This document shows, piece after piece, positions 28,240 to 61,665 of a stretch of DNA of 64,000 nucleotides. How positions within the stretch are numbered: position 1 is the stretch's first letter; each line of letters opens with the position of its first letter. The position numbers and the translations under genes were made by a program. The stretch is from Torymus aiolomorphi (lineage: Eukaryota > Arthropoda > Insecta > Hymenoptera > Torymidae): NCBI GenBank assembly GCA_036365515.1, contig CM070874.1:40164083-40228082 (forward strand). The letters run 5' to 3'. The notes beneath the pieces are model-generated. The model was not told the DNA's origin and did not search any database. It saw nothing but the letters and a program-made list of their open reading frames with translations.

Positions 28240-29690
28240 TCGTAGACGTGCATCAATAAGCAAAACAATTATAAAAAAAAATTTTAAACTCAAGTAGGCT
28301 GGGGATATGAGGTTCATATGAGGGAATTACATAGATGTGCAACAATAAGAAAGACAATTATTTAAACAATTATAAACCTAAGAAACCGGGGGGCGCGAGG
28401 TCCATGCATATTAGGGAATTACGTTGACGTGCAACAATAAGCAAGACAATTATTTAAACAAATTTTAAACACAAGTAGGCGGGGGATATGAGGTCCACGC
28501 ATGTTAGGGAATTACATAGATGTGCAACAATAAGAAAGACAATTATTTAAACAATTATAAACCCAACCAACCGGGGGACGCGAGGTCCACATATATTAGG
28601 GAATCACGTTGACGTGCAACAATAAGCAAGACAGTTATTTAAACAATTTTAAACCCAAGTAGCCCGGAGGACGCAAGGTTCGCGCATATTAGGAAATTAC
28701 GTAGACGTGCATCAATAAGCAAAACAATTATTAAAAAAAATTTTAAACCCAAGTAGGGTGGGGATATGAGGTCCACGCATATAAGGGAATTACATAGATG
28801 TGCAATAATAAGAAAGGCAATTATTTAAACAATTATAAACCCCAAGTAGGCGGGGGATGCGAGTTCCTCGCGTATACTGGAATAAGGCAGTCGTGTATAC
28901 ATGGCAAAATAATTATGTAAATAATTCTTAACCCCAAGTAGGCGGGGAATGCGAGTTCCACGTATACGGGAGCGCGTCAGACGTGCATACAAGGCAAATA
29001 ATTATTTAAATAATCCTCAACCCCTAGTAGGTGGGGGATGCTCCCATATTCGCGTGGAACTTGCACCTTGCGCCTACTTGGGGTTAAGAATTATTTACAC
29101 AATTATTTTGCCTTGTATGCACGTCTGTCGCGCTAACGTATACACGTGGAAGTCGCACCCCCCCCCCCAACTTCGGGTTAAGAATTATTTAAATAATTCT
29201 TTTGCCATGTATAATACACGTCTGCCTTATACCAGTATACGTGTGGAACTCGCATCCCCCGCCTACTTGGGGTTAAGAATTATTTACATAATTATTTTGC
29301 CTTGTATGCACGTCTAACGCGCTCCCGTATACGCGTGGAACACGTATCCCCCGGCTACTTGGGGTTAAGAATTATTTACATAATTATTTTGCCTTGTATG
29401 CACGTCTGCCCATTCCCGTATACGCGTGGAACTCACTTCCCCCGCCTACTTGGGGTTAAGAATTATTTACATAATTATTTTGCTTTGTACGCACGTCTGA
29501 CGCGCTCCCATATACGCGTGTAACTTGCATACTCCGCCTACTTGGGTTTGAGAATTATTTAAATAATTCTTTTGCCATGTATAATACACGTCTGCCTTAT
29601 ACCAGTATACGCGTGGAACTCGCATCCCGCGCCTACTTGGTGTTCAGAATTATTTAAATAATTGTTTTGCCTTGTATTACACGTCTACGT
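28240..29690. repeat. About 90 bp satellite array, orientation reverses near 29040
   Basis: Units are built of an AATTATTTAAATAATT palindrome, AACCCCAAGTAGGCGGGGGAT, CGCGTATACGGG and GACGTGCATACA. From 28240 to about 29038 they run in one orientation (diverged, with ATGAGGTCCACGCAT forms on the left); from about 29040 to 29690 they run in the other. The same satellite recurs at 60411-61665. Confidence 0.85.
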
Positions 29691-29894: not shown

Positions 29895-30919
29895 ATTTAC
29901 ATAGACAACTAGATTGGATTCTTCACTCAGGCAATGACACACTTATTGATTTGGATTCCAACCAAATGGAAAACAAGCGACTTTGTAGTGACCATTTTAC
30001 TGCTGACGATTTTGTAATCGGTTCTGGTATGAAAAGATTAAAAGATATTGCTATACCTATTCAAAAGGCTTCAGCTACTGATTTGAATGATTCCGACGAA
30101 TTTGAGGAACATGATGGCTCCGAAATTGATCTTCCTCCTATTACCTGTTAAGAGAGATCAGCTATTGATTTAGAAACTCCCTTTTTAATAGAAACTAGTT
30201 TTAACATGCCACAAAGCTTTGATACAGAAGAGCCATCTTGTTCAGGAATGCAAAGCCAATTGAATTTTGATTGTGACTCTACGGAAAAATCCACAAATGC
30301 TGTTGATAAAATAAAAACTTATGAAACTTCACTTCAAAAATTGCAAGATGAAATTAAGAATTTACAACGACAGTTAAACCAAAAAGATAAGCATCGTAAA
30401 AAGGCACAACATGTGATTAAATAAGTGAAAGCAAAAAATGTAACGTATGAACAAAAAGCTAAAAACATTCAAAATAGAATTAAACAACTTTCTAAAAACA
30501 TTCGAAATGGAAATAAAAAAATTTTGAATCTTGAGCGTAAAATTGAAAGATCTAAGGAAGCAGTTTCTTTTTATGATGAGTACTTAAAGCTTAATGCTAA
30601 TGTATTAAATTTTTTTCAAATGCAAATGAATCATAACAAACGGAGAAAGTGGTCCAATGACGAAAAAGAGTTTGCTATGAATTTATTTTATAAGTCTCCA
30701 AAAGCTTATTGTTATTTGCGTGACCAAAAGAAGTTTGCTTTGCCCTGTATTAGTTTAATAAGGCGATGGATTAACGAACTTGATTTGAGTCCCGGAAATA
30801 ACACTAAGTTATTAGAATTACTGAAAATAAAATCAAGTACAATGACTCAAAAAGAACGCGAGTGTGTATTATTGTGGGATGAAATGAGTATAAAATCGTG
30901 GTTAGATTACAACCCATAA
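29895..30919 (+). pseudogene. THAP9-like transposase, N-terminal part
   Basis: A TTTACATAG acceptor near 29905 opens an exon with the C-terminal half of a THAP zinc finger (NKRLCSDHFTADDFV...AIP). A TAA near 30150 and a TAA at 30422-30424 interrupt the frame. Residues from 30300 to 30600 form a Lys/Glu coiled coil, probably for multimerisation. The segment KEFAMNLFYKSPKAYCYLR and LLWDEMSIK, ending LDYNP, is the region before the RNase H-like core of THAP9. The first Cys pair of the THAP finger lies in an exon I could not place. The frame reaches the TAA inside the Penelope target site. Confidence 0.75.
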
Positions 30920-30934
30920 AAAGAATTGATTGAG

Positions 30935-31477
30935 ATGATGATTCTAACGACAGCTGCTTCAAATGTACCCGAATATTTGATTTGTGTAGCTATTGAAAAA
31001 CGTTGGACACAATTATATAATTATACAAATTTAACTTGCAGTGAATTTATAGGATCAATAAAGTTTATACTACAAAATAACTACTTTCAATTTAACGACC
31101 AATTTTACAAACAAAAGTTTGGTTCAGCGAGGGGAAATCCTATTAGCCCCATTCTAGCTGATATCGTAATGCAAGATTTGGAATCTTATGCATTAAATAA
31201 ACTTTGTTTCGATAGTATATTTTATTTTCGTTATGTAGATGATATTTTGTTATGTGTGCCAAGAAACCTAATTAATTATACACGAGACGTTTTTAATAGT
31301 TATGACAAAAACTTACAGTTTACGACTGAAACATCGTGTAATAATAAAATCAGTTTTTTAGATATCGAAGTTATAATAAAAAACAAAAAAATAATAACTA
31401 ATTGGTATAGAGAACCAACGTTTTCGGGCAGATTTCTAAAAATTTTAACTCGCAACATCCTATTAAAAACAAAATAG
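30935..31477 (+). pseudogene. Penelope reverse transcriptase, partial
   Basis: The segment from about 30955 encodes VPEYLICVAIEKRW, FIGSIKFILQNNYFQF, then GSARGNPISPILADIVM and the catalytic FRYVDDIL, which are hallmark blocks of Penelope RTs (telomerase-like class). The frame ends at 31477; homologous residues (HPIKNKIAIIYSLVDRAINL) continue in another frame. The N-terminal RT is missing by truncation. Inactive. Confidence 0.85.
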
Positions 31478-31569
31478 CGATTATTTACTCACTTGTAGAC
31501 AGAGCAATCAATCTTTCACACACATCATTCCATAATGTAAACCTAAAATTAATTAAGCAGTTTTTAACT

Positions 31570-31653
31570 ATGAATGACTATCCTATAGAATTTATTAATA
31601 ACTATATCAATTTTGATATAGTTATTAATAAATTCTATAGGATAGTCATTCAT
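31570..31653. repeat. Perfect 41 bp inverted repeat inside Penelope
   Basis: 31570-31610 and 31613-31653 are exact reverse complements separated by TT. The left arm is ordinary Penelope coding sequence, so the right arm is a snap-back copy inserted in the linker. Confidence 0.95.
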
Positions 31654-31699
31654 TCAAAGACTCAGAAGCATAAATTACGCCAATAAAACTATACCACAG

Positions 31700-32242
31700 T
31701 TGGAACAAAATAGATTTCACATAGTCATTCCATACGTGAATGAACTCAATTCAATTATTTTAAGATTTTTTAGAAAATATAACACACAAGTCATTAACAG
31801 CACTATAAATAAATTAAACTGCTTTATTAAATTAGGTAAAGATGTGAGTACGAAAGAGGAAAAAACTAATGTTGTCTACCAAATCAAATGTAACGATTGT
31901 GACGCATCATATGTAGGTCAAACGGAAAGACGCTTAGGTATTAGAATTAACGAACATTTCAAAAAATGCGAAAATAATGATCGAGGGTCTGCTATTTATA
32001 CTCATATGGAAGAAACGGAACATAAGTTCAATTTTGAAAAAGTTAAAATTTTACATAATGAACGTTTTTTGTTTAAACGAAAGTTAGCTGAGATGCTTTT
32101 CATACATGCGCAAAAACAATATATTAATAATCAACAAGACACAAAAACACTCAGGTTCGAATATAAATCTTTTATCAATAAAAATCATTTTCTACAACAG
32201 CAATATCCTACAAACACAATCACAGAAGATAGAAGGTATTAG
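31700..32242 (+). pseudogene. Penelope GIY-YIG endonuclease region
   Basis: Contains VVYQIKCNDCDASYVGQTER followed by LGIRINEH, the GIY-YIG core with the preceding CxxC pair seen in Penelope endonucleases. The ORF is open for 180 codons but is separated from RT by frame breaks and a foldback duplication at 31570-31653. It would nick target DNA for primed reverse transcription. Confidence 0.85.
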
Positions 32243-32441
32243 GAGAGTATGTTAGACAAAGAGATGGCCACGCCCAAAATATAAAATCACAGTCATCTTG
32301 GGCCCTCCCCGTCTCTTTGACACCTCCTTGACATATATTTGTCTAATACTCTCTCTCTGTACAACTAATAAGCACCGCCTTATACAATGTATGATTGGCT
32401 TCTTGTATTAATGTAACAAATACATATGTAATTCTCCACTG

Positions 32442-32480
32442 TATATAAAGGCCAAAATGTTGCGAATTTACTTTCAATTG
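32442..32480 (+). promoter_or_regulatory. Penelope internal promoter (TATA plus initiator)
   Basis: TATATAAAG at 32442-32450 and CTTTCAATTG at 32471-32480 give a TATA-initiator pair about 33 bases apart in the 3' region, where Penelope-like LTR copies carry promoter activity. Confidence 0.5.
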
Positions 32481-32614
32481 ACTCGTGGTATCGCTGTGAC
32501 CACCTAAAAATTTGTTAGACTATTGTTTCTTGTAAGTAATTATGTGTAATTTGTATGTAAATTTTTCTATCATTTTTGTATCAAAAGTTTATAATATATG
32601 ATTTTTGTATTAGA

Positions 32615-32656
32615 GTCTTGAGAAGGGACTCAATAAAAAAAGAGTCCGAAACGTCG
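32615..32656 (+). ncRNA. Hammerhead-like motif of Penelope 3' region
   Basis: CTTGAGAAG is followed by stem GGACTC (32626-32631), a ten-base A-rich loop, GAGTCC (32642-32647) and GAAACGTC. The stem II plus GAAA half of a hammerhead is exact, but the CUGAUGA box is degenerate. Penelope-like elements are known to carry hammerhead motifs; activity of this copy is doubtful. Confidence 0.5.
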
Positions 32657-32751
32657 ACATTAAGCTAAACACTCGGCTTGTCATTTACCATCCTGACTCC
32701 TTGGACAGCACGACCGTTAGTATCGATAGAAAAAAGAACTCATAAAAAGAA

Positions 32752-33978
32752 TTGATTGAAGGTTACACTGATATGGGAAAACATGGTCGCAATAAAAATA
32801 ATGGTAATCATGTTTTAGTTTTTATGTTACGAGGTAGGCAGAATGATTGGAGACAGCCTAATTGCTATTATGTTCCCCATAAAAGTGTAAATGGAAAATT
32901 ATTGCATAAAATCATTTTAGATGTTGTAGATTACGTTGAAGACGCCAGTTTTCTATTAAAATCAATGGTATGCGATCAAGGATCGCCAAATCAATCGGCC
33001 AGAAAAAAATTGAGTATAACAAAAAACGAGCCATTTATTGAACGACATAATCGTAAAATTTTCTTTAACTTCGATGCTCCCCATTTACTTAAATGCCTGC
33101 GTAACACTTTTCGTAAACGTCAATTTGAAATAAATGAGAAATCTGTTTCATGGGACGCGATTCGGGAATTAAGAAATCGTGAAAAAGATCTACCAACTAA
33201 ATCTGCCCCTAAACTAACAGACAGACATCTAGATCCAAATTCTTTTCAACTAATGAACGTTAGCCTTGCAGCTCAAATTTTTAGTAAAAGTGTTTCCTCA
33301 GCGTTACTAGCAGGTGCAGTCACACCAGCGCAACCTTTGACTCATCCAGATTGTATAGAAACAGCAAATTTTATTAAAAAAGTAAACGACCTTTTTGATT
33401 GTTTAAATAGTAGAAGTTCTCGAGATGGTAATCCTTTGCGTCGTCCTTTATCAAAATTAAATCCTCAAGTAATACAGTATTTGAAAGAGTCCTTGATTTG
33501 GATCGAAACGTGGAAATGCGTTGATAAAAACGGTAATCCCCCATGCTTTGGCGGTTTTTATTTGACGGTTAATAATATACTTTTACAATTGGAAGATATG
33601 GCAGCAAATGATGGAGTGTATTTGTTAACGACGCGTTTAAATCAAGATCTATTAGAAAATTTATTCTCTGTTTTAAGAAGTCGTTCTGGTCACAATCAAA
33701 ATCCAAACGCAATGCAAGTAAGGCATAATTTGCAGTATAGCATTACTGTAAATTTAACATCTTCATCCAAATTAACAAATTGCGAACCTGATGGAACAGT
33801 AGCGTTACTAGCAATTTGTATGAAAAGTAAAAATGTTGAATTACAAGAATCGTTAGAAAACGGAACCAATTCTGTGCACGCGTTTGATGAAAATATTAAT
33901 GCGGATTGTATTAATAGTAATTTCCTTGCAAAAGACAACAGTATCATCGAAGTAAATGTAGTCAAAATAATGAATTAG
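32752..33978 (+). pseudogene. THAP9/P-like transposase catalytic region
   Basis: A 408-codon frame continues the gene after the Penelope insertion: ELIEGYTDMGKHGR, MLRGRQNDWRQPNCYY, VCDQGSPNQSARKKL, then FFNFDAPHLLKCLRN, LTDRHLDPNSFQLMNVSLAAQ and LTTRLNQDLLENLFSVLRSRSG. These blocks match the RNase H-like and inserted GTP-binding regions of P/THAP9 transposases, including the Asp in DAPHL and the Glu in QDLLENLF expected as catalytic acids. This part has no internal stop, so it decayed less than the N-terminus. A nuclear DNA-cutting role is inferred from the family. Confidence 0.85.
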
Positions 33979-34771: not shown

Positions 34772-37700
34772 TAAAAAGAACTTGCTAAATTAAAATAATA
34801 TTTTTATTACTTGCCGATAAAGCAAAACACACTATTTTTTTTTACAAAAAGGAAATATAAATCTTTGTTTCATGATCAAATTTCAGCAGGATGTTACGCT
34901 TATTGTGTTGTCTGTTGCTAAGAAATAATTATATGTATATTTTGTTACGGAACATTAATTTATGTGATACCATAAAAGGTGATGTTTATTGACAATTTAT
35001 TAATGCAAAGTATGATTTCTAATTATAATTTTTATGATTATTTTCAATTAAAGTAAAATACTAGTTATTCGCTTTCAATTTCATTTTGCTTCATAGAAAT
35101 TTTCCACTTCTTTCATTCCTGCATCATCAATTATTTATAAATCCTAGATCTTCATATCAGAAAAGTTTGTGTATTTGATATGACTATATTTAATAGTATA
35201 AAAATTTTAATTGCCAATTCGATAATTGTAATTTCCACTTCATAATTACCATATTTATTCCGTAAAATTATTTAAGTAGAATTATCAAAAATATAATGTC
35301 ACTTTTTATGTATTTAGAATTTTTTTCAATATTTATGTTTTATATTTTATTTATTTATTTATTGAGCCAGAGTTTATTGTATTAAATTCCAAGGAGACGT
35401 TTATAGCGTGATTTCACCAGTGAATGAATGAATAAGGAAATTTCTATTTTTGTTATTTAATTAAGAGAATTAAAAATCGATTAAAAGCAAAAATCTTTTT
35501 TAATTAGTATTTTAAAAACTTCAAACTTTACGTCAGTGACAAAATTTTAGATAAAGAATAAAAGTAGAAATTTTGTTTATAAGAAATCTGTAAATATCTC
35601 TTAAAAATCAGTAAATGAACACACGATCTTAGTATCTAAATAAGTTTCGCCAGTGAATGAATACTTCGCCAGTGAATAAACACTCAATAGCGGCGATTTT
35701 TTATGATTTTATTCTTAACAAATTCTTTTATGAAGTATCTTTATGTAAAATGAAATCAAAATTTTAAAAGATTCGAAAATTATCGTCATATTAGATAAAC
35801 AATACATAGAAAGATTGATATTTTCATATATTTAAAGAAAATGTTCCTTAACTGGTGTCTGTTCGGATATTGGTGAAGTCACCCTGCAAAAAATACTGTA
35901 GTTTGTGGGGTGTGGATGCTATCATCATACGTATCATTATCGTTTTTCACTCATTATAAGCCATATTTTACGTCTCATAAATAATTTAGATTATAATACT
36001 TTGTTCGGATAATTTGAAAGCAGTTGACTTACTAGTATAATTTACGACTATATATTTAAACTTCAAATTAATAACGATTAGTTGTAGTAACATGCAGGAA
36101 GACAATACTGTAGTTCATAATTTTGTTTTATCTTTTGTTGTAAATTGTAGTTCACGATTTTGCGCGGTCACTATTTGCATATGTTTTTGTAGTTCATTTA
36201 AATTAAACAATCAGATTAAAGATAAAAGATTTTAATGTTTAGTACATGTTTGTAATATTTGTAAATATTTATTACCCTTCCTTCCTTAACCTAATGCTCC
36301 TGTGTTTCCTATCCTATCCTGATGGAAGATATCTGCCACCTTCCCGCTTGGTTTCCGTCGAATAATATCGCGTTTGCATATTATCTGTATTGTTTAAAAT
36401 AATTAATAAAATTGAATAACTGAAACAACGTGTAATATATAACAAATACCTATGCAAACACCTATTAACTGAGAGCAGAACATATTAATGAACATTCCAT
36501 GAATTTAAGTAGAATAAACAATCTTTTTCGTAACGCAGGGTCGATTTTTGTGTTTTTAAATTTTTAAAATCGATACTAGTTTTTTTATGCCCGATCCATT
36601 ACTTTGCGATTGCTGCAGCATCTTTTTATCCACAGGGGAGGTATTTTATCAGAATGGTGAAATGTTATATAGGTATTTTATTAAATATAATATGACCATT
36701 TCCTTCAAAGAATATCTTAAATATAATGTCGTTTAAAAATTTTCCAAATCTGATACTGGCAATTAGAAACGGGAGCTATTCAGAACATGACAGGAATTAT
36801 TTTCGAAAAGAAATATTAGAAAAATTCGAGTCTATAAAAATTAAAAACAAATTGCATAAACTTACAGACTTTTAACTATTCCGAAAAATGTAAAAAATGT
36901 ATTCTCATAAGATTTTTAGATCATTAGTCGACATTATGGCTTCCCTTTATCACTACATTTTCTATACAGTTTAATCGTTAGGTGGAAATGGTATTGGAAA
37001 TATTGATATCATATATAATATTAAAATAATTTAATGAGAATATTATGGTCTTCTTGCCAATTTTTTTTTTTAATTTTTATATACTAAACTTTAAACATTT
37101 TATACCACTGTAGACTCAAAATCATAACTTTAATATAATTATTCGGCTCTCGTGGTATAAAATACGGTTCGAAACTACTGCGTAATAAGATTTGTAACTC
37201 ATGTGACTTTTCTCACTCGCTTCGCTCGTGCGAAAAACGCGTTATTTGAGCTAAATAATCACCTGATGCACTCGTATTGAAATGTACTATTTCGAAATTC
37301 CGAAAATTAACCATTCTTATGATAAAGTATTCTAATTTTTTTATTGATATTTCTTTAAAATCACCCATCTGACAATTTAGTTGTCTGATATAATACCCCC
37401 TCGCCTTTCTTCTCAAACCTTTATTTATACATTGATTATGATAAATAAATTGAGTATCTATATAGGGCCCTAATGATCTGTGTTGAAAACCCGTTAATTT
37501 TTAAGAAACGCACTTACCTTATAGGCTCGTGCTAACTTGCGTTCGACTTGTACTTTATATAAATACTCGGTCTGCTAAATCCAACGTTACACCCTTGATG
37601 CACAATATATTAATTAACAGTGAATACGATAATTAATACAATGGTTGCATACAGTCGAAAAGTGATATGATATATCAAGTTAAATATCTATACATATAAT

Positions 37701-38124
37701 ATGACTACATAACTAATTATTACTATTTATTTGCTTCTATAACAATTTATATCTTTTTTATTTCTTTCAATTATTATTTTTTTAATCAAATAATTGTAAG
37801 ACTTTATTAACTTTTAATAATATTTGATATAATTGATTTGTATATTAAATTTTATTTCATCATTATGAAATTGTTATTTATAAAAAAGTTTTATAACATT
37901 TCAAGTTGCAAATCATCATGCAGTCATGCTTTACGGTCCCTGCGCTCGGATCACCGTGAATGGCGCGTGCCGGCGAGTCGTGGACGGCGCGCGCGCGCGA
38001 GCCTCCCAGCCGCCAGCCGCGATTCGCAGAAGAAAAGCACACAAAGTCAATGCTAGCGCCACCACTCGGCAATGGCGGAACTAATTTTTTTTCGTCCTCG
38101 CCCCCCATCTGAAGTACGCTTCTA
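34772..38124. other. Non-coding AT-rich interval
   Basis: Over 3.3 kb without a supported gene. Very AT-rich; a CACCAGTGAATGAATGAATA-type motif repeats near 35415 and 35650-35680. A short CTCGCTTCGCTCGTG palindrome-like patch lies at 37214-37230. A GC-rich island (about 37925-38070: GGCGAGTCGTGGACGGCGCGCGCG) is unlike its surroundings and may be a MITE fragment. Confidence 0.45.
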
Positions 38125-38518
38125 TATGCACATTAGCGTCGTAATAATTATTAAATATTACACTAGGCAATTAGCTTCACTTAAATTTATATTTAACGCG
38201 GTGCTTGTGTTAGTAACGCACCGACAGATGGAGCCTCTTTTTTCCACTAGTCAAAAGAGCGGCTCAGTCTATAAACCTTTGGCCGCTACGATGGAGCGCT
38301 AGGTGTCTGATGACGGCTACTAGATCATCACTGATGAGTCCAATCTAGTAGCCTGGACGAAACACCTGTGAATTTTTTTAGACTGCAATAAGTGTCTGAC
38401 TTATTGTTATAATCTCTTATTTTTGACAACTTTTTTCGATTTGGGCCTTTAATAAAAAGGACATGAGATTGTTTTTTGCCTTTATGCACATTAGCGTCAT
38501 AACAATTATTAAATAACA
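38125..38518. repeat. 36 bp direct repeats bracketing the hammerhead ribozyme
   Basis: TATGCACATTAGCGTC starts at 38125 and again at 38483, with the following 20 bases about 80 percent identical, giving roughly 32 of 36 matches at an offset of 358. The ribozyme lies between them. They could be remains of a tandemly repeated unit of about 358 bp or of an insertion duplication. Confidence 0.7.
38301..38367 (+). ncRNA. Type III hammerhead ribozyme with loop-loop pseudoknot
   Basis: Stem III is AGGTG (38301-38305) with CACCT (38363-38367); the cleavage dinucleotide UC is 38306-38307. Stem I is TGATGA (38308-38313) with TCATCA (38325-38330), then the conserved CTGATGA (38331-38337). Stem II is GTCC (38338-38341) with GGAC (38355-38358), followed by GAAA (38359-38362). 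Every core nucleotide is canonical. Loop I (GGCTACTAGA, 38315-38324) and loop II (TCTAGTAGCC, 38344-38353) are perfectly complementary over ten bases, supporting a tertiary loop-loop pairing. Cleavage is predicted 3' of C38307. The host transcript is unknown. Confidence 0.9.
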
Positions 38519-38802
38519 TTTTTGTTGTGCAACAAAATCTTTTCAGGTTCATCTTCGTATACGTAGTCGCTATTATTTATTACTCTATTCCTATCCTTAT
38601 TTTTACAAATTTCATTTTTACTTGGCAACGACACTTTTTCTGAAGCAGTATTTTCCGAACTTATAATTATATCATTGTAATGCAATGAATTGAAAGATGC
38701 ATTTCCATCATCTATTTTCATTGGAATAATAGACTCTGTACAAGATTTATTATGTCTACTATACAAGGTCATAATTTTATTTTGTTCAAAAATTAATCGT
38801 TC

Positions 38803-39483
38803 TTAAATATTTCTTTCTATCATATTAATTTCTTCAGCATTAAAATGTAAATTTTGTTCGACAAAAACATATTTATGAATGATAGATTGTCGTATCGGTA
38901 TCAATGAAAAATCATAATTTATATATTCATAGGTAGAATTTTGAGAAAGTGTAAACATTCTTATGGTACGTATTTCAAATATTTTTAACAAATGTAATCA
39001 CATTTGAGAAATATCAAAAGATAAGCTAGATGGACATATATTAAAGAGAATAGAAATCGCAAAAGCTATCGCGAAAATTCCGCAATCATAAGAATTAGTT
39101 TGTGACTGTACTGTTTCGAAAGTAATTTTTAATTCAGGATTGTTTGGATATAATCTATTGATGAAAAGTTCATCTTCTTCTTTTAAGCATTTAGCATTAT
39201 GACTATCATAAACATGTATAATGTTATTGCTATAGTACATACAAATCCAATGACCTATTTTAGAATTACCTGAGAATAATAATTGTATGTATTCACAATT
39301 AATTGGTATTGAAATGATATTATAAAGTGTTTGAACCAATAGCGACGATTGCATATTGAAAGATGAACAATTATTAAGTATATTATTAAATTCCAAAATA
39401 TGTTCATCATATAACATAGATTCATCACCAGTACATAACCCAATCCCTTTTACAACTAATTTTTGTTTTTCGGTCAAACCCAT
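38803..39483 (-). pseudogene. Ulp1/C48-type cysteine peptidase-like protein, transposon-associated fragment
   Basis: ATG at 39483 opens a 161-codon frame. GHWICMYY supplies the catalytic His, IHVYDSHN the Asp, VQSQTNSYDCGIFAIAFA the oxyanion Gln and catalytic Cys. After a TGA at 38998-39000 the same frame continues for 64 codons (LHLLKIFEIRTIRMF), so this is one gene broken by a single nonsense codon. The size and motif order match short C48-like proteins common in insect transposons. A desumoylase-like role is only a family inference. No transposase was found next to it. Confidence 0.7.
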
Positions 39484-40172
39484 TGTATTTTAAATTTATC
39501 TAAAGCAAATATTCAAAATGACAAAAAACGTTTTTTCTTTTTATCAAAAAATTTTTTAACAATTGTAACAGCTGAAAAATAAAATAAAAATATAATTATA
39601 CAAGATTAACGACTGTATATTATTTTATATAATAATTAATTTATACTTTATATTTAAGGTAAAATAGCCATTACTATGACGTCAAGGCGCACTCTGAACT
39701 GGGACAGTAACAAATACTAATAATTACCTGATGTATATTAACTTAAATCATAGAAGCCAAATTCGTTAGTTATTTTTGAGTTTTAATTATTCGATTATTT
39801 GTTTTTTTTAAATCCAAAACGTTATGAATTCAACAAAAAATATAACAAACAGTACCCTTTGAAAGCATTGTATGAACCATGAACGAACTCGGCATCTTGA
39901 TTGTATTTCACGAGCATTGGTACAACTTTCAATGTCTTTTAACTGACATTTTTTGAGTTAATAGTAAAAAAACTAGCATTCATAAATACTTCTTATACAT
40001 TCATAAATAACGTTAATACTTAACAGATCGATTTTAATAATTATTTATTTAAAAATTGGATGTCTCGCTTTGAGATAACTTTTTTGTGTAGTTGTCTAAC
40101 TAAAACGACATAATTATAGTATCTTTTTCCTTAATTTTGCTATAAATATTCGTAACTATGCATCTAAAATTT
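39484..40172. other. Non-coding AT-rich interval
   Basis: No coding signal or structured repeat is seen in this stretch. Confidence 0.4.
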
Positions 40173-53585: not shown

Positions 53586-53732
53586 GTTAATCGACTTTCA
53601 ATTTTCTTTTGTAGGTTTTGGTGGTTATTTTATTTGGTTAAATGTAGCCAATGGTAGGTTTTTGGTGTAGTTATAGATTTGTAGCTAATGGCCGTACTAC
53701 CAAGGTGTTTTTTATAAGTAAAACAATTATTT

Positions 53733-53770
53733 ACAACGTTTCGGACATTTTATTACGTCCCTCTTCAGGT
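53733..53770 (-). ncRNA. Hammerhead-like motif, left arm
   Basis: On the minus strand CCTGAAGAGG, stem GGACGT/ATGTCC around AATAAA, then GAAACGT. CUGAAGA replaces the canonical CUGAUGA. Confidence 0.5.
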
Positions 53771-54631
53771 TCTAAATACAACAATTATACAATTATTTTT
53801 TACAATTCACAATAACTTAATTTCGCATTAATAAATAAAACTTACATTTAAAACGTATTGTCAGATTCTTTTACGGAAAGTAATCCGTTCGTCACTGCTT
53901 ACAATTCGGATTTTTCGTCGTATTTATACAGATGTTACGCATATATGTGTGTGTATAAGACGCGCGTACAGTGGTGGGGATGCAATAGACGATTTTCGAA
54001 GCGACACAGCGGGTGTGCTATCAGGAGAGTATGTCTAAGTAGAGGGGGACCCCAACCAATGTTACAAAATTTTTTGACAACGAGCAATCCTACGACAACG
54101 TGGGCGTGCGTGGTAACTCTACCTCAGCATGTTCTCCTGTTCTCCTTCACTTGCTGCTTTCAGTATTTTCCTCTTATAAGCACATAAATTGACAATTATT
54201 TATTAGAGTGGTATATTCTTTTGGTAAACTATTAAATACTGAAAGCAGCAAGTGAAGGAGAACAGGAGAACATACTGAGGTAGAGTTACCACGCACGCCC
54301 ACGTTGTCGTAGGATTGCTCGTTGTCAAAAAATTTTGTAACATTGGTTGGGGTCCCCCTCTACTTAGACATACTCTCCTGATAGCACACCCGCTGTGTCG
54401 CTTCGAAAATCGTCTATTGCATCCCCACCACTGTACGCGCGTCTTATACACACACATATATGCGTAACATCTGTATAAATACGACGAAAAATCCGAATTG
54501 TAAGCAGTGAAGAACGGATTACTTTCCGTAAAAGAATCTGACAATACGTTTTAAATGTAAGTTTTATTTATTAATGCGAAATTAAGTTATTGTGAATTGT
54601 AAAAAATAATTGTATAATTGTTGTATTTAGA

Positions 54632-54668
54632 ACCTGAAGAGGGACGTAATAAAATGTCCGAAACGTTG
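54632..54668 (+). ncRNA. Hammerhead-like motif, right arm
   Basis: Same motif as the left arm in plus orientation: CCTGAAGA (54633-54640), stem II 54642-54647 with 54654-54659 (one G-U pair), GAAA 54660-54663. The non-canonical box makes self-cleavage uncertain. Confidence 0.5.
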
Positions 54669-54710
54669 TAAATAATTGTTTTACTTATAAAAAACACCTT
54701 GGTAGTACGG

Positions 54711-55313
54711 TTATTTTATTTATTCAATATATAATATCTCAATGTAGGTATATATATATATTAAGAGTAAACCCATATTTATGTGACTTTGTTTCGTGTT
54801 CCGTCGTACATTAATATAAACCAATCAGAGGAGTGCAAGTATAGTACATATTATACCGCAGTGGTGGGTAAACGACATGATTTTTTGACAAGTAATATAC
54901 CTGTCAAAAATATCAAACACTAGAAGGCGTTGTTGCGCATGCGCACCATGGGATCGCGGGCGAGAATCTCGTGAAACGTGAACTATCTAAGGTACATAAG
55001 CGCTGTGCTGTGCGATGCCCAGGGGCCTTTCTACATATGTGTGTTCTGTGTGTTATGTGTGTTCCCGACAAAGACAGATAGAAATTTTCTTCGGAAAATT
55101 TCTTCGAAGTATGACTCTTGGTATATGGTATATCTTCTTAAAGCCTGACCGCCTGGAGATTAACGAACCTTGTTTAATGTGTACTTTTACTCTTAAAAAG
55201 TTGTGAAATCTCCCTCAAAAAATTTTTTACAAAGGTAAAAACTTAGGCAATTATATACACAATGTAATTATTATCCATCCCTGTCCCTCCCCTCTCTTGC
55301 TCGCTCTCACCCT
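54711..55313. other. Non-coding interval
   Basis: AT-rich, with a CpG-bearing patch (54930-55000) and a C/T-rich tract at its end (55280-55320). No gene supported. Confidence 0.35.
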
Positions 55314-60410: not shown

Positions 60411-61665
60411 ATGTGCGGGAGCGCGTCACGCGTATACATGGCAAAGTAATTATTTAAATAATTCATAACCATAAGCTGGCGGGAGATGCGAGTTCCACGC
60501 GTATACGGGAACGCGTCAGAAGTGCATACATTGCAAAATAATTATTTAAATAATTCTTAACCTCAAGCTGGCGGGGGATGCTAGGTCACCGCGTGTACGG
60601 GAGCGCGTCAGACATATATACATGTCAAATAATTATTTAAATAATTCTTAACCTCAAGCTCGCGGGGGATGCTAGATCACCGCGTATATGGGAGCGCGCC
60701 AGACGTGTATACATGACAAAATAATTATTTTAATAATTCTTAACCCCAAGTAGGCGGGGGATGCGAGTTCCACGCGTATACGAGAGCGCGTCAGATGTGT
60801 ATACAGGTATAATAATTATTTTAAGAATTTCTAACCCCAAGTAGGCGGGGGATGCGAGTTCCACGCGTATGAGGGAGCGCGTCGCACGTGTATACATGGT
60901 AAAATAATTATTTTAATAATTTTTAACCCCAAGTAGGTGGGGGATGCGAGTTCCACGTGTATGCGGAAGCGCGTCAGACTTGTATACATGCCAAAATAAT
61001 TATTTAAATAATTCTTAACCCCAAGCTGGCGGGTGATGCTAGATCACCGCGTATACGGGAACCCGTCAGACGTGCATATATGACAAAATAATTATTTAAA
61101 TAATTCTTAACCCCAAGCTGGCGGGGGATGCTAGATCACCGCGTGTATGGGAGCGCGTCAGACATGTATACATTTCAAAATAATTATTTAAATCATTCTT
61201 AACCCCAAGCTCGCGGGGGATGCTAGATCACCGCGTATATGGGAGCGCGCCAGACGTGTATACATGGCAAAATAATTATTTTAATAATTCTTAACCCCAA
61301 ATAGGCGGGGGATGCGAGTTCCACGCGTATACGAGAGCACGTCAGATGTGTATACAGGCATAATAATTATTTTAAGAATTTCTAACCCCAAGTAGGCGGG
61401 GGATGCGAGTTCCACGCGTATGAGGGAGCGCGTCGCACGTGTATACATGGTAAAATAATTATTTTAATAATTTTTAACCCCAAGTAGGTGGGGGATGCGA
61501 GTTCCACGTGTATGCGGGAGCGCGTCAGACTTGTATACATGCCAAAATAATTATTTAAATAATTCTTAACCTCAAGTAGGCGGGGATGCGAGTTTCACGC
61601 GTATACGGGAGCGTATCAGACGAGTATGCAGGCAAAATAATTATTTTAATAATTTCTAACCCCAA
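60411..61665. repeat. About 92 bp satellite array with a six-unit higher-order repeat
   Basis: About 13-14 units of the satellite also present at 28240-29690, all in one orientation. Units carrying CTCGCGGGGGATGCTAG occur at 60659 and 61210, and the following units match one by one, giving a higher-order period of about 551 bases (six units). Confidence 0.9.

Follow-up and report, generated by a model that had tools for sequence, protein, structure and literature searches.

A type III hammerhead ribozyme (HHR) found in 64,000 nt of the genome of the torymid wasp Torymus aiolomorphi (the window, i.e., the whole stretch of DNA analysed) probably belongs to a short non-autonomous element, a retrozyme that would be mobilized by Penelope-like elements (PLEs) and copied round a circular RNA. 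The element itself is best read as a non-LTR retrozyme of 354–358 nt, that is, a short non-autonomous retrotransposon. The evidence drawn from sequence covers the ribozyme and its family, tandem units arranged head to head, ends of two classes, duplicated targets and the matching layout of resident PLEs.

An earlier note on this DNA described a hammerhead with the right core bases, three perfect stems and two loops exactly complementary over ten bases. Its coordinates and consensus core are recovered both by a descriptor and by the Rfam model, the stems are indeed perfect and 10 nt of each 11-nt loop are perfectly complementary. Its parts, all on the plus strand, are the following.

38301..38367, plus strand: type III HHR, predicted cut 38307/38308 (Rfam model, descriptor, genome copies)
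38301-38306 paired with 38362-38367, plus strand: stem III
38307, plus strand: C17, predicted cleavage residue
38308-38313 paired with 38325-38330, plus strand: stem I
38314..38324, plus strand: loop I, 11 nt, of which 38315-38324 are complementary to loop II
38331-38337, plus strand: core CUGAUGA
38338-38342 paired with 38354-38358, plus strand: stem II, five pairs including the loop-closing A-U
38343..38353, plus strand: loop II, 11 nt, of which 38344-38353 are complementary to loop I
38359-38362, plus strand: core GAAA

The HHR has the features of type III: a CUGAUGA...GAAA core, H17 after U16.1 and three stems (I = 6, II = 5, III = 6 pairs) of which stem III is open. CTGATGA occurs twice, at 38307-38313 (C17 followed by the 5' side of stem I) and at 38331-38337 (the core heptamer), so that TCATCA of stem I is complementary to both. 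The earlier note ruled out a chance origin, and so does simulation: 2,190 Mb of simulated sequence gave 34 matches to a relaxed type III descriptor, none with stems of at least 6/4/6 pairs, and the longest loop–loop run among these 34 was 7. Together with the genome copies described below, this simulation rules out an isolated or chance motif. At 40.2 bits (E = 3.3e-7 in 700 bp and 3e-5 in the whole window), the HHR stays under the gathering cut of 48.5 of the Rfam model Hammerhead_3, and a default Rfam search therefore lists nothing. The Rfam run on the genome returned two matches and missed the retrozyme family itself; as it scored just 68 of 148,516 candidates, it is no census.

The guess that the HHR might mark a small repeat or retrozyme-like unit proved right: it lies in a 358-nt repeat found at no fewer than 38 loci of the genome. 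A search of the genome (1.08 Gb, 21 contigs) for further copies of 38125-38518 gave 188 matches, with 40 of 671 candidates scored, so that both 188 matches and 38 loci are lower bounds. The listed places were grouped by eye, and 37 loci besides the window were fetched and aligned. A broader pattern brought phage-like loci among the matches listed. No relatives were found in plasmids, and the sole match in other genome contigs was rejected, as it lacks stem II by eye. The window holds one copy of the retrozyme, laid out as follows.

38122..38515, plus strand: retrozyme copy, 1.10 turns of the 358-nt unit (unit phase 1 = 38122)
38122..38157, plus strand: first pass of the 36-nt overlap
38480..38515, plus strand: second pass of the 36-nt overlap, with the outer (3') end of the copy, of A type
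38516..39517, plus strand: right flank, which over 1,003 columns matches the left flank of L142, 343 kb off, at 97.4% identity

The 36-bp direct repeats 358 bases apart that had been seen around the HHR are real and 92% alike, but they do not flank a separate unit. As the copy makes 1.10 turns of the unit, they are the unit start and its overlap, which also rules them out as a target duplication. The match between the right flank and the left flank of L142 indicates that the window copy is a truncated duplicate. No tRNA was found near the HHR in 37500-39000.

The family is non-coding and multi-copy and consists of short tandem units with one HHR each, as retrozymes do. The unit measures 358 nt, or 354 nt in a second haplotype that is 4 nt shorter. 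An arm can comprise as many as 6.5 tandem units, and 52 of the 66 arms are longer than a single unit. Sequences diverge by 1.5% inside an arm, by 1.6% from one arm of an insertion to the other and by 2.2% from insertion to insertion. Common variants agree as well between two arms (774/889 comparisons) as between the units of one arm (629/729), the figure between insertions being 24,394/45,292. Rare variants do not establish one template per insertion: only 4 are fixed in both arms, compared with 278 found in part.

The insertions share a peculiar anatomy. Thirty-three of the 38 loci are head-to-head arrays (minus arm left, plus arm right), none is reversed and five have a single arm; the 5'-truncated ends lie inside and the 3' ends face outward. 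The inner ends fall at scattered phases, and only 2/66 come as close as 10 nt to the ribozyme cut, compared with 3.9 expected, which indicates that a 5' end made by the ribozyme was not what halted copying. The outer 3' ends form two clusters, A (phases 27–39) and B (phases 64–75). Among the 30 loci with both ends classed, 28 carry one A and one B end (16 AB, 12 BA), with a median offset of 37.5 nt (range 30–45). Projected onto the window copy, the two sites and the motifs that precede them, which were noticed after the fact, are placed as follows.

38132..38141, plus strand: motif ATTAGCGTCG upstream of site A
38148..38160, plus strand: site A, putative cDNA starts in one arm per insertion (outer ends, fetched loci)
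38170..38179, plus strand: motif ATTAGCTTCA ahead of site B, spaced 38 nt from the first copy
38185..38196, plus strand: site B, putative cDNA starts in the other arm (outer ends, fetched loci)

In a post hoc comparison, TTAGNNTC lies 13–17 nt before 5/6 of the start stretches compared. Equally post hoc, the window has two pairs of ATTRGCNNCR at a spacing of 34–41 nt, compared with 0/60 simulated windows with such a pair. The two exceptions to the A/B rule are L141, a larger inverted duplication with mirror-copy flanks, and L144, where an extension of 77% identity forms the right end. L139, L158 and L164 each have one end outside clusters A and B, L151 and L155 are one insertion present twice, and the second arm of L133 is just 48 nt long (87.5% identity). 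Exact target duplications of at least 10 bp, most commonly 13 bp, flank 24/33 two-arm loci, compared with 3/300 mismatched pairings. AT content beside the element is 0.72 and 0.76, compared with 0.65 further off. PLE sequences coding for reverse transcriptase (RT) or the GIY-YIG nuclease flank the insertions L132, L133 and L158, which may be retrozymes inserted in or beside PLEs, or else chimeric copies.

PLEs are abundant in this genome: 150 matches were scored of 11,676 candidates, and several have open frames of 951 aa. In 69 rows chosen by eye from these 150, the orientation of neighbouring PLE RTs is -+ in 31 cases, -- in 6 and +- in 1. The window itself holds one fragment.

30911..32759, plus strand: PLE fragment (RT and GIY-YIG frames) inside a P-element, bounded by 23-bp direct repeats

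Its last 0.5 kb is 97–99% identical to the PLE arms examined elsewhere in the genome. It interrupts a P-element transposase at 30425-33978, and an 84-bp palindrome (31570-31653) lies between its RT and GIY-YIG frames. Among 120 transposase relatives listed (of 380), the nine with a named organism come from wasps and ants, a weak pointer to a hymenopteran host given that transposons move between hosts; a search with the P-element brought up beetles, a fly, an aphid and a tick. The ends of four head-to-head PLE insertions were fetched (the authors' choice, two each from two subfamilies), and 4/4 have a one-sided tail of 33–40 nt and duplications of 13–14 bp. ATTRGCNNCR is absent from the PLE ends of these four insertions. 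Since the A/B ends and target duplications match this PLE layout, the retrozyme carries a PLE-type insertion signature: two start sites with a one-sided tail, a target duplication and an AT-rich target. The statement that the HHR stands apart from the Penelope copies holds for its sequence, but the way in which the element is inserted links it to PLE enzymes. A purified lizard PLE protein cuts and extends both strands (Frangieh et al., PMC11167929); synthesis begins at a pair of neighbouring internal sites, the sequence that separates these makes up the PLE tail, and no strand difference in start site was seen in that in vitro study. According to the available portions of PMC7229834 and PMC7761336, PLEs had already been proposed as movers of animal retrozymes, and the former, in those portions, treats them as a strong candidate, no more, for retrozyme copying. 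The end pattern reported here is genomic evidence for PLEs in this role.

Another feature of the window, 53636-54710, includes a palindrome of 1,019 bp (53692-54710, 96% self-identical) and has an 11-bp duplication (53625-53635 and 54711-54721) and a one-sided extension of 56 nt. It holds a degenerate HHR-like motif of a kind known from PLEs. This putative PLE does not match the four PLE ends.

Taken as a whole, the following model can be drawn for the lifecycle of the retrozyme. The array would be transcribed and the type III HHR would cut the RNA after C38307 in each unit, after which the monomers would be closed into circles. The PLE protein, with its RT and GIY-YIG nuclease, would then cut the two strands of AT-rich DNA about 13 bp apart. 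Each of the two DNA ends would serve as a primer on the circle, with reverse transcription beginning at site A for one strand and at site B, about 38 nt away, for the other. Copying would run about one to several times round the circle and stop at scattered points, and joining of the two cDNAs would leave an array of arms set head to head, with a single additional tail and a duplicated target. The window copy would have arisen from an array of this kind as a truncated duplicate. The steps that we infer are cleavage, the formation of circles, the role of the PLE as enzyme and a single template per insertion; signs of a circular intermediate are indirect, since the arms reach 6.5 tandem units and their inner ends are scattered. 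The arrays suggest one start site per strand in each insertion, unlike the in vitro PLE result (PMC11167929). An RNA of 354–358 nt with two mapped start sites, along with resident PLEs with frames of up to 951 aa, offers a test system.

The 38 loci hold 124 HHR copies, 121 of which are 69 nt long. The core is intact in 111 of these 121, and all 10 loop–loop pairs can form (G-U allowed) in 111. Every stem pair is kept in 38, or in 93 if the outermost pair of stem III, lost in one haplotype, is ignored; position 38367 is mixed in 4 of the 32 loci with several HHRs. In the L167 subfamily (78% overall identity to the unit of the window), 4/4 HHR copies have loop I unchanged and 2/4 have both loops unchanged; core and stems are kept in 2/4. 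The compensatory changes that the earlier note expected in the stems are weakly represented, by one compensated pair (G38302-C38366, which is A-U in L167). Covariation within the family shows no excess over shuffles, a test without power on copies this young.

A second, sequence-unrelated family also has long complementary loops, and thus two unrelated families share this HHR design. It is exemplified by the following locus.

L168:527-1681 (G000:C5:19269125-19270279): L168 LTR retrozyme, 1,155 bp

Its LTRs of about 305 bp are 97.4% alike, each with a type III HHR, and a PBS-like stretch follows the first LTR. GC content is 52%, compared with 29% in the flanks. At least 15 further full-length or nearly full-length matches were found (40 of 278 candidates scored), and five of the six fetched copies, the L168 locus included, have 4-bp duplications. 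The nine HHRs of these six copies have stems of 6/4/4 pairs, and the complementary loop–loop run is 11 nt in seven of them and 9 and 8 nt in the others. L193 is a tandem form of the same LTR retrozyme. Metazoan retrozymes are said to be without LTRs in the available portions of PMC7229834 and PMC7761336; the L168 family would be an animal counterpart of the plant LTR retrozymes.

The putative contact between the loops is supported by the recurrence of the design in an unrelated family and by the unchanged loops of L167 (2/4). In secondary-structure models, the HHR fold without loop contact reaches -18.1 kcal/mol, compared with -29.1 for an 11-bp hairpin; the favoured hairpin would break stems I and II and be inactive, and in growing transcripts the modelled probabilities of both stems are near 0. 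With A-RNA geometry, a coaxial kissing helix of 10 bp would leave a gap of 25 A for a one-nt linker, which makes partial kissing or a switch likelier than full pairing. That two unrelated families have long complementary loops suggests a hammerhead design into which a switch may be built. The longest loop–loop match in 49 distinct type III HHRs (121 fetched loci) is 3, a weak control because their stems were extended greedily with G-U pairs, which shortens loops. Examined as a possible rod-like, highly paired circle, the whole circle has a structure z of -3.25, but its parts beside the HHR have just -1.17 and -0.84, without significance. An alternative structure is named in the title of a paper on satellite CYDV-RPV in the reference list of PMC6466107, and loop–loop pseudoknots are reported for about 40% of HHRs in the available part of PMC3088659.

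A joint reading of both families can be put forward tentatively, and we would sooner bet against it than for it: the PLE would copy circular ribozyme RNA from two adjacent sites, simultaneously and routinely, with one start site per cut DNA strand, and both retrozyme families would have converged on a bistable hammerhead. The short circle would make the two-site rule visible because the polymerases share the ring, run in the same direction and never collide. If true, this rule would account for both the PLE "tail" and the head-to-head arrays, the complementary loops of 10–11 nt would alternate between kissing, as the active form, and an inactive hairpin thanks to which completed circles stay closed, and PLE-driven and LTR-type retrozymes would have converged in one animal.

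Several other explanations can be weighed against PLE-driven copying round a circle. A ribozyme that is locked or dispensable, in an element otherwise as described, is unlikely: the 10-nt match would then be an inactive hairpin and the element would spread without cleavage. The modelled fold energies and growing-transcript probabilities would agree with locking, and ribozyme mutants of the lizard PLE still insert in vitro, their insertion being unchanged (PMC11167929); against this stand the core intact in 111/121 copies, the core and stems kept in half of the HHRs of the 78%-identical subfamily and the recurrence of the design in an unrelated family. Slightly less probable still is a LINE-type enzyme with twin priming that would have drawn its tandem units from a tandem source transcript, with neither PLE nor RNA circle. 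Twin priming fits 5' truncation, inverted arms and duplications of 10–18 bp; however, the A and B end classes, one of each in 28/30 loci, match the PLE tail and the resident PLEs, and no class of inner ends lies at the ribozyme cut (2/66).

A product of events at the DNA level, i.e., a satellite array or an inverted-end DNA transposon shaped by recombination instead of reverse transcription, is very improbable. It would be compatible with tandem units and inverted arms, and L141, L151/L155 and the window copy were indeed rearranged or duplicated after insertion, but arms differ in length and inner end while outer ends obey one rule, and most insertions have their own target duplication. We give as little credence to an origin from an HDV-like or viroid-like agent, an endogenous fragment of which would have brought in its own type III HHR. 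According to the available portions of PMC7936874, loop pseudoknots occur in type III HHRs of HDV-like RNAs from a termite and a toad, and also in those of termite and fly genomes. However, no HHR was found on the minus strand of the window by the type III descriptor, so the ribozyme is not on both strands as such an agent would have it; the HHR flanks have no unusual structure (z as above), viral contigs gave no match to four patterns and the family is multi-copy with PLE-type insertions.

HHRs, their loop–loop pseudoknots and retrozymes are already known. Metazoan non-LTR retrozymes, as described in the available portions of PMC7229834 and PMC7761336, resemble the element in being small (170–400 nt), tandem, low in GC, non-autonomous and equipped with a hammerhead, in lacking LTRs and in having PLEs as suspected movers. 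The HHRs described there are of type I, whereas that of the 358-nt element is of type III with complementary 10-nt loops, and the element is accordingly filed as a variant of this group. Head-to-head arrays with A/B ends do not appear in those portions either. PLEs (PMC11167929) and the element are alike in the priming of both strands, two start sites, a one-sided tail of 30–40 nt, AT-rich targets and tandem copies; they differ in that PLEs have a minimal type I HHR and the element has a type III HHR and no coding sequence. The atypical type III HHRs of termite and toad HDV-like RNAs, termites, flies and satellite CYDV-RPV (PMC7936874, available portions) share a base-paired loop–loop contact but have a long helix I, an internal loop, an extra hairpin and a GCCR/YGGC contact, whereas both loops of the element's HHR are terminal, 11 nt long and complementary over 10. 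The structure search in that paper was, in the same portions, negative in hymenopterans. Plant LTR retrozymes (PMC4918200; described in the available portions of PMC7229834 and PMC7761336) resemble L168 in a type III HHR per LTR, 4-bp duplications and GC above 50%; L168, unlike them, lies in an animal genome, and the 358-nt element itself has no LTR. As far as the literature searched shows, a type III animal non-LTR retrozyme with its PLE-type ends, loops complementary over 10–11 nt and an animal LTR retrozyme are new; for a PLE-type insertion signature in retrozymes, no earlier report was found in a search that was thin on subscription journals.

The window also carries a satellite of about 92 nt, at 28243-29686 and 60416-61665; the former array turns round near 29041, so that its halves are inverted. 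A minus-strand frame at 8014-8730 matches Pfam Baculo_F (2.3e-10) and represents an envelope-like part of a retroelement.
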